Origin: Dehalococcoidia bacterium
Lineage (GTDB): Bacteria > Chloroflexota > Dehalococcoidia > CAUJGQ01
DNA: 33,227 bases
Direction: 5' to 3'
NCBI GenBank assembly: GCA_035310145.1
Contig: DATGEL010000091.1
Span: 1 to 33,227 of the forward strand
Part shown: positions 27,426-33,227 of the stretch, one piece after another
Layout: each line of letters begins with the position of its first letter
Position numbering within the stretch: the stretch's first letter is position 1
Notes under the pieces: generated by a model
Databases searched by the model: none
What the model was told of the DNA's origin: nothing
Seen by the model: only the letters and a program-made list of their open reading frames with translations
Made by a program: the position numbers and the translations under genes

Positions 27426-27460
27426 TGATTCGCGGCTGCCGTGCCGCGCGCCGCGAATCA
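27426..27460. terminator. Hairpin between convergent genes (bidirectional terminator candidate)
   Basis: TGATTCGCGGC (27426-27436) and its exact complement GCCGCGAATCA (27450-27460) form an 11-bp stem with a 13-base loop. The right arm contains the stop codon of the M23 peptidase (27458-27460). There is no T-run on either side. Confidence 0.55.
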
Positions 27461-28468
27461 GGGAAGCACTTCGCGCGTCCAGCGCAGGGCATCGACGTGG
27501 ATGCCGCCGACGGCGCACTCCCAGTGGAGATGCGGGCCGGTGGAGAGGCCCGTGGTGCCGACGAGGCCGATGTTATCGCCGGTGCTCAGCGCGTCGCCCA
27601 AACTGACCCTGATTGCGGAGAGGTGGGCGTAGCCGGTGTACATGCCCAGGCCATGGGCCACGGCCACGAAGTTGCCCCGCTCGGCGAGCGGCCCGGCGAA
27701 GGCCACCTGGCCCGGCGCCGCGACCGGCACCGGCGTGCCGGCGGGCGCGGCGATGTCCACGCCCGAGTGGTGACCGCTGACCGGGCCACCGTTGTAGGAG
27801 CGCGCCTGGCCGAACTGCGTCGTGATCTCGCCCTGGATCGGCTGCACCAATAACCCGTGCCAGAGCGGCGGCGTGCTCGCCGGCAGATACGTCGCACGCA
27901 GCGCGGCGAGCTCCTGCGCCACCACACCGGGATCGAGCAGGCTGTTCAGTCCCGGCGGCAGCACGATCTGATCCACGGGAAAGGCCGTGGGCGTGACGGT
28001 GACGGGCAGATCGTAGCTGTAGGATCCGAGGCCGGACGACGAGGCGTCGACGTGCACGTTGTAGCTGCCCGGATCGATCTCGATTTCGGAGTCGACCGGC
28101 TGGCCCGCGCCGATGATCGCCACCAGGTAGGCGCCGTCGGCCACGAGCGGAAACTGCCAGCCGTTGAAGGTGGCGACGGCGCTGTCGGCGTAGTAGGAAT
28201 GCAGGTGCAGCGAGAAGGCGCCGGCCTGGGCGATCGTGTCCGTCGAAAGAAAGGTGAACGGCGCGGCCTGCTCGGGCTGCACCAGCACGGCCGTGCCACC
28301 ACCGCGCGCGGTTAGCGCACGCCGCCCCGCGAGGGCCGAGCCGGCGATCACGCCCAACGAACCCAGGCCGAAGAGGAAGCCGCGCCGGCTGATCGTGGCG
28401 CGGGGATCGAGCGATGGAAGCACAACGCCGCACTCGGGAGAGATCTCGCCTCGCCAGTCTACACGCAC
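27458..28468 (-). CDS. Tat-exported M23 (LytM-type) metallopeptidase
   Basis: 336 residues from a GTG at 28468; a GTG at 28423 (VLPSLDPRATISRRGF) may be the true start, and neither has a strong ribosome site. The N-terminus carries a twin-arginine signal, SRRGFLFGLGSLGVIAGSAL (Arg28-Arg29). The C-terminal peptidase domain has the zinc ligands in HHSGVDIAAPAGTP (His234, Asp238) and GPHLHWE (His315), plus the catalytic-side His in YAHLS. Such enzymes cleave peptidoglycan cross-links. The middle region looks beta-rich and is not recognised. As a predicted Tat substrate it is probably exported folded with its zinc. Confidence 0.9.
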   Translation of the reverse strand: MRVDWRGEISPECGVVLPSLDPRATISRRGFLFGLGSLGVIAGSALAGRRALTARGGGTAVLVQPEQAAPFTFLSTDTIAQAGAFSLHLHSYYADSAVATFNGWQFPLVADGAYLVAIIGAGQPVDSEIEIDPGSYNVHVDASSSGLGSYSYDLPVTVTPTAFPVDQIVLPPGLNSLLDPGVVAQELAALRATYLPASTPPLWHGLLVQPIQGEITTQFGQARSYNGGPVSGHHSGVDIAAPAGTPVPVAAPGQVAFAGPLAERGNFVAVAHGLGMYTGYAHLSAIRVSLGDALSTGDNIGLVGTTGLSTGPHLHWECAVGGIHVDALRWTREVLP

Positions 28469-28724: not shown

Positions 28725-29693
<969 letters not shown>

Positions 29694-29715: not shown

Positions 29716-30990
29716 GTGCCCGCCGTTCCGCGGGTGCACAGCATGCACGGCTTTCGCCGCTTCCACGTTCAGCGCTCGGTGCCGATCATCGCGCTGCTGC
29801 TCATAATCTGCATCGGCTTCGCGCTGGCAACGGGTTTTTGGCTGCTGTTCCGCCTTGCCTACGTGCTGCTCGCCGCCGTGCCGCTCTGCTATCTGTGGGC
29901 ACGCTTCAATCTCAGCCAGCTTGACGTCTCGGTAGAGCGGTTGATCGACCGCGCTCAGGTCGGCCAGAGCACCGACGAGCGCATCACTGTGCGCAACAAG
30001 GGGCTGTTCCCCAAGGTCTGGCTCGAAGTGGATGATCCCACCACGCTGCCCGGCCATCGTGCCGGCCGCGTGATCACGCTGGGCGGAAGGCAGCGCCGCT
30101 CCTGGCGCACGCAGGCGCAGCTCACGCGCCGCGGCGTGTTCACGGTCGGCCCGCTGACGCTCACCAGCGGCGACCCGTTCGGCCTCTTCCGCGTCAGCCG
30201 CCAGTACGGCCGGCAGTCGTCGATCATCGTTTATCCGCCCTACTACGACCTGCCGCACTTCACCGTGCCGCCCGCGAACCTGCCCGGCGAGGGCCGCTTC
30301 CGCAAGCGCACCCACTACGTCACACCAAACGCTTCGGGCGTGCGCGAGTACGTGCCCGGCGACAGCTTCAACCGCATCCACTGGCGCAGCACCGCGCGCG
30401 CCGGCAAGCTCATGGTCAAGGTCTTCGAGCTGGACCCGGCCAGCGATATCTGGATCGTGCTCGACATGCAGGGCCGCGTGCAGGCCGGCAGCGGCGACGA
30501 GAGCACCGAGGAGTACGGCGTCAAGGTCGCGGCCTCGGTGGCGCGGCATTTCCTTAGCCAGAACCGCAACGTGGGCCTGATGCTCTACGGCGAGCGGCTG
30601 GAGATCGTGGAGGTCGAGCGCGGCGGCCAGCAGCTCACCCACATACTCGAGGCGCTCGCCGTGGCACGCGCGGTCGGCGATGTGCCGGTCGGCGATCTGC
30701 TGAACGTCGAGGGCAAGCGTTTCGGCCGGCACACGACACTTGTGGTGATCACGCCGTCTGTTGACGAGGCCTGGGTACTGAGTCTTTTGCAGCTCACCGG
30801 CCGCGGCGTCAAGGTCGCGGTCGCGCTGCTGGAGGCGAGCACCTTCGGCGCCAACACCAATCCGCTGCTGGTCGTCGGCGCCCTGGCGGCGGCGGATGTC
30901 TGGACCTATCTCGTGAAACGAGGGGACAATCTCTCGTCCTCGCTTGCGCCGAGCGGCGACGAGACGGTGCAGACGCCGAGGCTTTCATGA
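29716..30990 (+). CDS. DUF58 domain membrane protein
   Basis: 424 residues from the GTG at 29716, chosen because AGGAG lies 8 bases upstream; an ATG at 29743 is the alternative. After a short basic N-terminus come two adjoining membrane helices (SVPIIALLLIICIGFALATG and LAYVLLAAVPLCYLW). The soluble part has a beta-rich domain (VRNKGLFPKVWLEVDDPTTL, RRGVFTVGPLTLTSGDPFGL) and the DUF58 core with GVREYVPGDSFNRIHWRSTA and RAGKLMVKVFE, then a von Willebrand A-like fold (DIWIVLDMQG). It is 22 bases after moxR and 37 before the transglutaminase-like gene. It probably acts at the membrane with both. Confidence 0.92.
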   Translation: MPAVPRVHSMHGFRRFHVQRSVPIIALLLIICIGFALATGFWLLFRLAYVLLAAVPLCYLWARFNLSQLDVSVERLIDRAQVGQSTDERITVRNKGLFPKVWLEVDDPTTLPGHRAGRVITLGGRQRRSWRTQAQLTRRGVFTVGPLTLTSGDPFGLFRVSRQYGRQSSIIVYPPYYDLPHFTVPPANLPGEGRFRKRTHYVTPNASGVREYVPGDSFNRIHWRSTARAGKLMVKVFELDPASDIWIVLDMQGRVQAGSGDESTEEYGVKVAASVARHFLSQNRNVGLMLYGERLEIVEVERGGQQLTHILEALAVARAVGDVPVGDLLNVEGKRFGRHTTLVVITPSVDEAWVLSLLQLTGRGVKVAVALLEASTFGANTNPLLVVGALAAADVWTYLVKRGDNLSSSLAPSGDETVQTPRLS

Positions 30991-31027: not shown

Positions 31028-33227
31028 ATGAGTCAGGCGAACTGGATCGAGTGGTTTCGCGATCAGCCGGCCGATGTGGAACGGCCGAAGCCGCTCTGGG
31101 AGCGGCTGCCCCCCTGGGCCACGAACTGGGAGTCTTGGCTGACCTTCGCGGTTGTCATGCTCACCTTCCTGAGCGTGGCGCGCTCGATCGACTCCGCCCA
31201 CTGGGTCGAGGGTATGCCCTCCCTGGTGATGATCAGTTTCCTGGCGCTGCTCACCGGCTTCGGCCTTTCGAAGATCAAGATCAACGAACTGTTCCTGCAT
31301 CTGCTGGCGATCCTGACCGGTGTGCCGGTGGTCGTCGGCTTCGCCCTGAGCTTCATGGGTGAAACCTCGCTGGGGCCGGGTCTCTCGCATTTTTGGCACC
31401 GTTTCGGCGACTGGATCGACGTGATCCGCACGGGGGGCATCACCACCGACAACATGCCCTTCGTGACGATCGTCCTGGCGCTGACCTGGATCGCCGCCTA
31501 TCTCTCCGCCTGGGCGATCTTCCGCTGGCGCAACGCCTGGCTGGCGCTGATTCCCGGCGGCATGGGGCTGCTGACGAACATCAGCTACCTGCCCGGCCAG
31601 TTCAGCGCCGACTTCGTCGTCTTTCTCTTCGGCGGCATGTTGCTGGTGATGCGCGTGAACCTGCTCAACCGCGTGCGCGATTGGCAGCGGCGCGGTATCG
31701 CCGTCCCGCAGTTCCTGAGCCTGACGCTGCTCAACATCACAGTCTGGATCGGGATCGCCCTGCTGATCGTCGCCTGGTGGGTGCCGCTGGCCGGCGAGTC
31801 GCGGATCTTCGCCAGTGCCTGGAACAGCCTCACCAGCCCGCTCGATAACGCCAGTGCCGACTGGAGCCGCCTGTTCAACAGCATCGACGCCAAGCGCGAA
31901 GTGCCGCTGCACAGCCTCGGCGCCACGCTGCCGCTGCAGGGTAAAGTCACGCTCAGCGACCGGGTGGTGGCCGAGGTCGATTTCGGCGATCAGTCCAACC
32001 AGGGCCGCAATCTGGTCGCCACCCGCTATGACGTGTACACGCCCGCTGGCTGGAAGCGTGGCGCCAGCGAGGCGGGCACGATCGGCCCCAACGGCGTCAG
32101 CACCGCGGACGCGCCGCCCGTCGACAAAGACGTATACAAGGACCGCAAGGCCGTGCCCGCCGACGTGATCGTGGACACGCCAAACGGCGTGCTCCTGAGC
32201 ATCGGCCAGCCGCTGCAGGCATCGATCGACGGCCGCGCCGATGTCGTCAACATCGGCACCGTGGCCGACGTGCGCGCGATCCATCCCAAGAAGGATCTGA
32301 AACGCGGCGACCAATACACGACCGTGGGCAGCATCTCGGTGGCGCCGGAAGAGAAGCTGCGAGCCGCCACAACGGAGTATCCGGACTACATCAAGCAACG
32401 CTATCTGCAGTTGCCGGCCGAGCTGCCGCAGGAGGTGCGCGACCTGGCCGTCAACCAGTCGGCAGCCGCGAACAATCCCTACGACAAGGCGCGCGCGATA
32501 GAGGATTACCTGCGCAAGTTCCCAAACACGTACGACATCCCGATCGTGCCGCCCGGGCGCGACGCCGTCGACGTCTTCCTCTTCGACACGAAGAAGGGCT
32601 ACTCCGACTACCAGGCGACGGCGATGGTGGTGCTGCTGCGCGCGGTGGGCGTGCCGGCGCGGCTGGCAACCGGCTATTCGGTGCAGGAGTTCGACCTGAA
32701 CACACACCGCTACATCGTGCGCGAGAAGGACGCCGAGTCCTGGCCGGAAGTCTATTTCCCCGAGTACGGCTGGGTTGAGTTCAGCCCCTTCGCCGGCGCG
32801 CCGCTGGTGTCGCGGCCCTTCACCGGCTCGGACAACGGCAGCCAGGCGGACGAGTCGCCGGATATCAAGTTCGGCGCCCCGATTTTCGCCGGCCCGTTCG
32901 GCCCCGAAGACATTCCCGGCGAGGGTGAGCTGGGCGGGGCGTTCAAGGTTCACCATCCGTTCAACTGGCTGCCGGTGTACCTGGGGCTGACGCTGCTGGC
33001 GGTGCTGCTGATCTGCGGCGGCATTCTGCGCCTGGCCTGGGAGTGGGGGCTGCGCGGCCTCGATGCGCCGGTGAAGACCTGGGAGAAGACGCTGCGGCTG
33101 GCGCGCTGGACGCGGCTGAGACCGAAGGCCAACCAGACACCGAACGAGTTCGCCGGCGAGCTGACGCGGCGCACCAGCCTGGAGGCCGAGCCGCGTGTGG
33201 TGGCCGAGAGCTTCGCCCGCACGCGCT
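31028..33227 (+). CDS. Transglutaminase-like membrane protein with a lost catalytic triad (truncated by window end)
   Basis: At least 733 residues; the frame is open at the window edge. The ATG at 31028 follows GAGGCGAG. About six membrane helices occupy the first ~260 residues, then an extracellular region with a transglutaminase-like fold (about 440-600), another helix (LPVYLGLTLLAVLLICGGIL), and the start of a C-terminal DUF4129-like cytoplasmic region. Where active members have GYC..FA, HAW and F(D/E)P, this protein has KKGYSDYQATAM (Ser526), KDAESWPEVYF (Glu570) and WVEFSPF (Ser586). All three catalytic residues are replaced while the fold motifs around them are kept, so it is probably a binding or scaffolding protein of the MoxR-DUF58 system and not an enzyme. 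Confidence 0.9.
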   Translation, partial: MSQANWIEWFRDQPADVERPKPLWERLPPWATNWESWLTFAVVMLTFLSVARSIDSAHWVEGMPSLVMISFLALLTGFGLSKIKINELFLHLLAILTGVPVVVGFALSFMGETSLGPGLSHFWHRFGDWIDVIRTGGITTDNMPFVTIVLALTWIAAYLSAWAIFRWRNAWLALIPGGMGLLTNISYLPGQFSADFVVFLFGGMLLVMRVNLLNRVRDWQRRGIAVPQFLSLTLLNITVWIGIALLIVAWWVPLAGESRIFASAWNSLTSPLDNASADWSRLFNSIDAKREVPLHSLGATLPLQGKVTLSDRVVAEVDFGDQSNQGRNLVATRYDVYTPAGWKRGASEAGTIGPNGVSTADAPPVDKDVYKDRKAVPADVIVDTPNGVLLSIGQPLQASIDGRADVVNIGTVADVRAIHPKKDLKRGDQYTTVGSISVAPEEKLRAATTEYPDYIKQRYLQLPAELPQEVRDLAVNQSAAANNPYDKARAIEDYLRKFPNTYDIPIVPPGRDAVDVFLFDTKKGYSDYQATAMVVLLRAVGVPARLATGYSVQEFDLNTHRYIVREKDAESWPEVYFPEYGWVEFSPFAGAPLVSRPFTGSDNGSQADESPDIKFGAPIFAGPFGPEDIPGEGELGGAFKVHHPFNWLPVYLGLTLLAVLLICGGILRLAWEWGLRGLDAPVKTWEKTLRLARWTRLRPKANQTPNEFAGELTRRTSLEAEPRVVAESFARTR

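Follow-up and report, generated by a model that had tools for sequence, protein, structure and literature searches.

Operons joining MoxR, DUF58 and transglutaminase genes are widespread, and PA2875 and PA2874 of Pseudomonas aeruginosa are presumably the MoxR and DUF58 genes of such an operon. Both are co-transcribed with PA2873, the gene of the TgpA protein, in the three-gene operon PA2875-2874-2873; tgpA is essential, and TgpA has a full catalytic triad and a measured, Ca-independent transglutaminase activity (PMC3507681). Inactive forms of the fold have also been described. RloB, encoded in the rlo operon of P. aeruginosa, combines an inactive transglutaminase with seven transmembrane helices in one protein (PMC12239564), and inactive transglutaminase folds serve binding or scaffolding in protein 4.2 of the red cell (EPB42), Rad4/XPC, FBXO21 and menin (PMC10318531). 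In the open-licence literature a triad-less clade of TgpA did not turn up, RloB being the closest "inactive transglutaminase", and neither did any paper on transglutaminases in Dehalococcoidia.

The window, i.e. the whole stretch of DNA analysed here, is exactly one contig of 33227 bp. An open reading frame on its plus strand (31028..>33226, 733 aa) codes for a TgpA-like protein and continues past the contig end. As relatives are full-length and mostly 763 aa and longer, the window gene is incomplete and lacks roughly the last 40-50 C-terminal residues, which corrects the initial annotation. The encoded protein has the architecture of the TgpA type. A block of N-terminal transmembrane helices (aa 34-251, 31127..31780, +), visible in the AlphaFold2 (AF2) model and as hydropathy peaks, is followed by a beta domain in the periplasmic region, which holds His295 (aa 293-440, 31904..32347, +; AF2 strands, with the alignment to TgpA structure 6g49 beginning at aa 292), and by a Transglut_core domain devoid of the catalytic triad (aa 472-587, 32441..32788, +). 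The latter matched PF01841 with 81.9 bits (cut-off 23), which makes the protein a member of the superfamily. Next come a C-terminal transmembrane helix (aa 648-672, 32969..33043, +; AF2 and hydropathy) and a DUF4129-like cytoplasmic segment, interrupted where the contig stops; DUF4129 was significant in relatives L005 and L037 and sub-threshold, with 11.2 bits, in the incomplete protein of the window. The TgpA_N/DUF3488 profile (PF11992) matched neither the window protein nor the two relatives searched with it, even at E values as lenient as 10, and we therefore file the protein as TgpA-like rather than as a TgpA_N family member. Sequence divergence may explain this non-match.

Directly upstream and on the same strand lie the two other genes of an apparent MoxR-DUF58-TgpA operon. 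The first encodes a MoxR-family AAA+ ATPase (28725..29693, +; AAA_3 217 bits, AAA_lid_2 80.7 bits) with Walker A GVGKT and Walker B DEINRA, and its probable GTG start at 28725 is preceded by GGAGGG. The second encodes a DUF58 protein (29743..30990, +; PF01882 73.4 bits, motif alignment) and is separated from the transglutaminase gene by 37 bp. The same three genes occur at the locus of the nearest relative, in the one other genome of the same order that the analysis covered (L036). Just upstream of MoxR there is a divergent gene on the minus strand (27458-28468), the translation of which reads as a secreted M23-type peptidase-like protein. A PADLOC search for anti-phage defence gave no meaningful match.

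The initial annotation had reported Ser526, Glu570 and Ser586 at the Cys, His and Asp/Glu positions of the triad, and this placement was borne out by independent means. Using phmmer, the window protein was aligned with the solved periplasmic domain of TgpA (6g49, E 2e-16), whereby GFCAHYAGAM was paired with GYSDYQATAM, DAHAW with DAESW, and SVDPT with EFSPF; the catalytic C, H and D thus correspond to S526 (codon 32603..32605, +), E570 (32735..32737, +) and S586 (32783..32785, +). The same three residues occupied the catalytic columns in alignments with relatives, and these columns were invariant in all 58 relatives classed as C/H/E. In the AF2 model (33 sequences in the alignment, mean pLDDT 83.8, pTM 0.78), helix 526-539 begins at residue 526, residue 570 is within strand 569-577 and residue 586 is just past strand 581-584, positions that agree with the expected topology as far as the model goes. 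The model itself matched the periplasmic domain of TgpA best (6g49 and 6g4h, Z 25.8, 263-269 residues, 3.3-3.4 Å), followed by human transglutaminases (Z 8-9) and chains of the inactive protein 4.2 (up to about 7.7). The concordance of the alignments with relatives, the phmmer match and the predicted secondary structure, together with invariance in 58/58 C/H/E proteins, indicates that the changes are real and the columns correct; misplaced columns are ruled out by the phmmer match to 6g49 and by two alignments. The protein consequently lacks the triad of an active transglutaminase or TgpA enzyme.

Relatives were collected in two ways. A search covering 100 genomes, most of them from the same class, gave matches in 61, and a profile scan of named genomes added 80 loci with titles such as Dehalococcoidia, Chloroflexi, Tepidiforma, SAR202 and Anaerolineae. 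The class containing the triad-less relatives is probably Dehalococcoidia, and some record titles of the scanned genomes (e.g. Thermoflexus isolates) look unreliable. By their catalytic columns the relatives fell into three types: C/H/E, S/H/E and triad-less. None of the 37 proteins of the triad-less clade had a catalytic residue at any of the three columns. The Cys column was changed to Phe in 33/37, the His column to Tyr (15), Trp (12) or Phe (8) in 35/37, and the Asp/Glu column to Asn (27) or Ser (8), again in 35/37, giving combinations such as F/Y/N, F/W/N, F/F/S and F/Y/S and, more rarely, S/L/A, A/F/S, S/W/N, F/Y/L and the S/E/S of the window. The three triad columns were the most clade-separating ones in the whole alignment (0/37 triad-less vs 58/58 C/H/E). 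The alignment of the clade contained no conserved Cys anywhere, so a relocation of the nucleophile to another part of the protein was rejected, and with it the objection that the catalytic residues lie elsewhere in the alignment. As for the S/E/S set, the expectation that it might be conserved among orthologues failed: it was found in the window genome alone, while loss of the triad was common to the clade, with a consensus of Phe, Tyr/Trp/Phe and Asn/Ser. Judged from these sequences, S/E/S is a private derivative of the clade consensus.

The presence of Ser at the nucleophile position raises the question of a serine-type enzyme, all the more so as a separate, related S/H/E group of about ten proteins (L022-L025, L033, L060-L063, L068 and L100), with Ser for Cys and with His and Glu retained, may be of this kind. 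In the window protein, however, His and Asp/Glu are missing as well, which leaves Ser526 without a general base, and most of the clade carries Phe at this column. We consider catalysis by Ser526 extremely improbable.

The window gene could also be a decaying duplicate, redundant with an active paralogue. Its S/E/S combination is unique to its genome, and that genome does hold the second copy which the initial annotation had proposed to look for: a TgpA-like relative with an intact C/H/D triad, apparently broken over the end of contig C22 and the start of contig C113, the two pieces likely being one gene. Against redundancy and decay, the reading frame is open over 733 aa, the operon is intact, and 62/63 clade-conserved residues (columns at least 93% conserved among the other clade members) are retained. 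GC3 is 0.90, with 0.89 in MoxR and 0.88 in DUF58. Moreover, the nearest relative (L005, 50% identity, F/Y/S) and the entire clade are triad-less, so the changes are not confined to one degenerating sequence. A decaying duplicate is thus very improbable. From the occurrence of triad-less relatives across the class, the gene appears to be an old, still-conserved dead enzyme.

The origin of the clade was assessed with a tree of 74 proteins, from which the three triad columns had been masked (quick method, no bootstrap). The 37 triad-less proteins formed one clade with SH-aLRT 95 and with no C/H/E or S/H/E protein inside; L029 (A/L/N) was placed near this clade, yet outside it. When all 38 triad-less proteins were forced into a single clade, lnL was 4.2 higher than in the free quick search (AU p 0.62). 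The tree and the AU test are therefore compatible with a single loss of the triad, without proving it. To estimate breadth, genomes were scanned at the DNA level with a degenerate pattern encoding G-Y-F-D-x(5)-M, its middle positions being restricted. Of 393 genomes of the class, 86 contained it and none contained the reversed control; the match in G142, GYFDYGSGSM, may be due to chance. In a sample of the phylum, the pattern was present in 2/31 genomes of the class vs 0/220 from other classes. Since Ser and Ala forms are missed by the pattern, these prevalences are lower bounds.

What has been conserved in the clade bears on what the protein may do. If the core were a structural relic, kept for folding or spacing, only the transmembrane block and the cytoplasmic tail would matter to MoxR-DUF58. 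In keeping with this, the gene order is fixed and the transmembrane block is strongly conserved (mean entropy 1.81 bits in the triad-less clade vs 2.27 in the C/H/E group). The core domain, however, is conserved more strongly still: with the triad columns excluded it is the most conserved part of the triad-less proteins (1.50 bits, with 1.48 in C/H/E), and even the triad replacements are constrained to Phe, aromatic residues and Asn or Ser. We regard a relic as rather unlikely. New, non-cysteine chemistry is another option, in which residues such as His295, Asp527 or Asp553 would make up an alternative active site. Of 36 clade members, 35 have His295, which is specific to the clade and variable in the C/H/E group; Asp527 has risen to 35/37; and the most discriminating columns after the triad are 553, where an invariant Gly has mostly become Asp, 329 (Trp to Leu) and 295. 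Yet residue 553 is Gln in the window protein, and outside the membrane the clade has no conserved Cys and no conserved His except 295, so that we deem a new active site improbable.

Gene context was scored where at least 1.4 kb of upstream flank existed. DUF58 was found upstream in 25/25 triad-less, 8/8 S/H/E and 8/51 C/H/E loci; MoxR-DUF58 was absent within the flank in 43/51 C/H/E copies, but because loci were sampled by similarity to the window protein, 8/51 is no fair frequency for C/H/E proteins at large. The DUF58 proteins of both C/H/E and triad-less operons lack the DxSxS MIDAS motif (VLDMQGR in the window, LDLERR etc. elsewhere), but a STEE-like motif is conserved in most of them. Coupling of MIDAS loss to triad loss was rejected, DxSxS being absent from C/H/E operons too. 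In the F/W/N group and L042 (L042, L044, L050, L051 and L053-L056), convergent minus-strand genes lie downstream of the transglutaminase gene and include a second DUF58 gene, whose product has a DxSxS-like motif (L044: VDISAS); two DUF58 systems are thus arranged tail to tail.

Other transglutaminase-like genes of the host genomes were also inspected. The triad-less copy was the sole Transglut_core protein in 11/18 genomes (two of the 11 less than 85% complete), and a role as partner or decoy of an active paralogue was accordingly rejected as a general rule. Where additional copies exist, they are mostly small, soluble-looking proteins with an intact Cys. Instead of MoxR, the C/H/D copy of the window genome has, as read from translations, an aconitase gene at one flank and NADH/formate dehydrogenase-like genes at the opposite one. 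The same genome has a Transglut_core match between infB-type and truB genes (L003, G000:C104:16503-16802) that apparently has His and Asp but no catalytic Cys. In another genome, a second TgpA-like copy beside the triad-less one (L122, G023:C87:25633-25971) has a partly altered triad, Cys/His/Asn.

Loss of peptidoglycan was considered as a cause of triad loss as well. Penicillin-binding-type transpeptidases were present in 17/17 triad-less genomes tested and in the window genome, with 3 to 6 in each, so this explanation was rejected. No such transpeptidases were found in 5/5 S/H/E genomes and in one C/H/E genome; as read from sequence, the S/H/E group is possibly a serine-type enzyme of wall-less lineages.

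Taken together, we favour the reading that the window protein is an ancient, conserved pseudo-TgpA, which probably acts as a non-catalytic binding or structural module on the envelope side of a MoxR-DUF58 membrane system. This retains the initial proposal of a catalytically dead transglutaminase inside an intact MoxR-DUF58 operon, which is well supported, and extends the loss to a whole clade; the sensor or scaffold role suggested along with it is a hypothesis. As the triad-less proteins have no canonical nucleophile, base or acid, and aromatic residues fill the sites in most of them, transglutaminase chemistry is very unlikely, a statement that we make with high confidence from their sequences. 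Even so, that the fold has been kept and the order of the genes does not vary speaks for a function. According to the proposed scenario, triad loss was probably a single event in an ancestral member of the class; bulky residues would then usually have taken the vacated positions, with Phe replacing Cys and an aromatic residue replacing His, and the core of the fold would have stayed under strong purifying selection. The former active-site domain may thereby have turned into a non-catalytic coupler: a peptide, a protein or the wall, as extracytoplasmic ligand, would be linked through it to the MoxR ATPase and to DUF58 in the cytoplasm. Two findings count against the pseudo-TgpA reading, namely the intact-triad relative in the window genome and the clade-specific polar features (His295, Gly553 to Asp), which could mean new chemistry.

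A bolder extension, which we put forward tentatively and consider doubtful at present, is that across much of the class the MoxR-DUF58-TgpA module runs entirely without transglutaminase chemistry, the former enzyme domain serving on the envelope side as a clamp or ligand sensor that is powered by the MoxR ATPase or sends signals to it. Catalysis would then not be what these operons are chiefly for, not even in the case of the essential Pseudomonas operon. By keeping operon and fold while dropping catalysis, the clade represents a natural experiment, suggesting that the module is conserved for something besides cross-linking. For TgpA, essential in Pseudomonas, it thereby becomes testable whether catalysis is what matters.

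Compared with TgpA, the window protein is alike in its N-terminal transmembrane helices, its large periplasmic domain with a transglutaminase core, its C-terminal helix and its predicted fold (Z 25.8 over 269 residues), and unlike it in the absence of all three triad residues and of a detectable PF11992 match. RloB differs in its partners, an ATP-grasp protein and an aspartic protease, whereas the neighbours of the window protein, as read on the upstream side, are MoxR and DUF58; the RloB (Transglut_i_TM) Pfam profile did not match the window protein, for which PF01841 and the sub-threshold DUF4129 were the only hits at E up to 10. Protein 4.2 and similar inactive folds are eukaryotic and have no membrane block, MoxR or DUF58. 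The C/H/E and S/H/E TgpA-like proteins of other Chloroflexota are homologous to the window protein over the full length, but have kept His and Glu together with Cys or Ser. The operon type, the architecture and the existence of inactive bacterial transglutaminases (RloB) are thus already known; what appears to be new, judged by the open-licence papers, is a triad-less clade of TgpA-like proteins.
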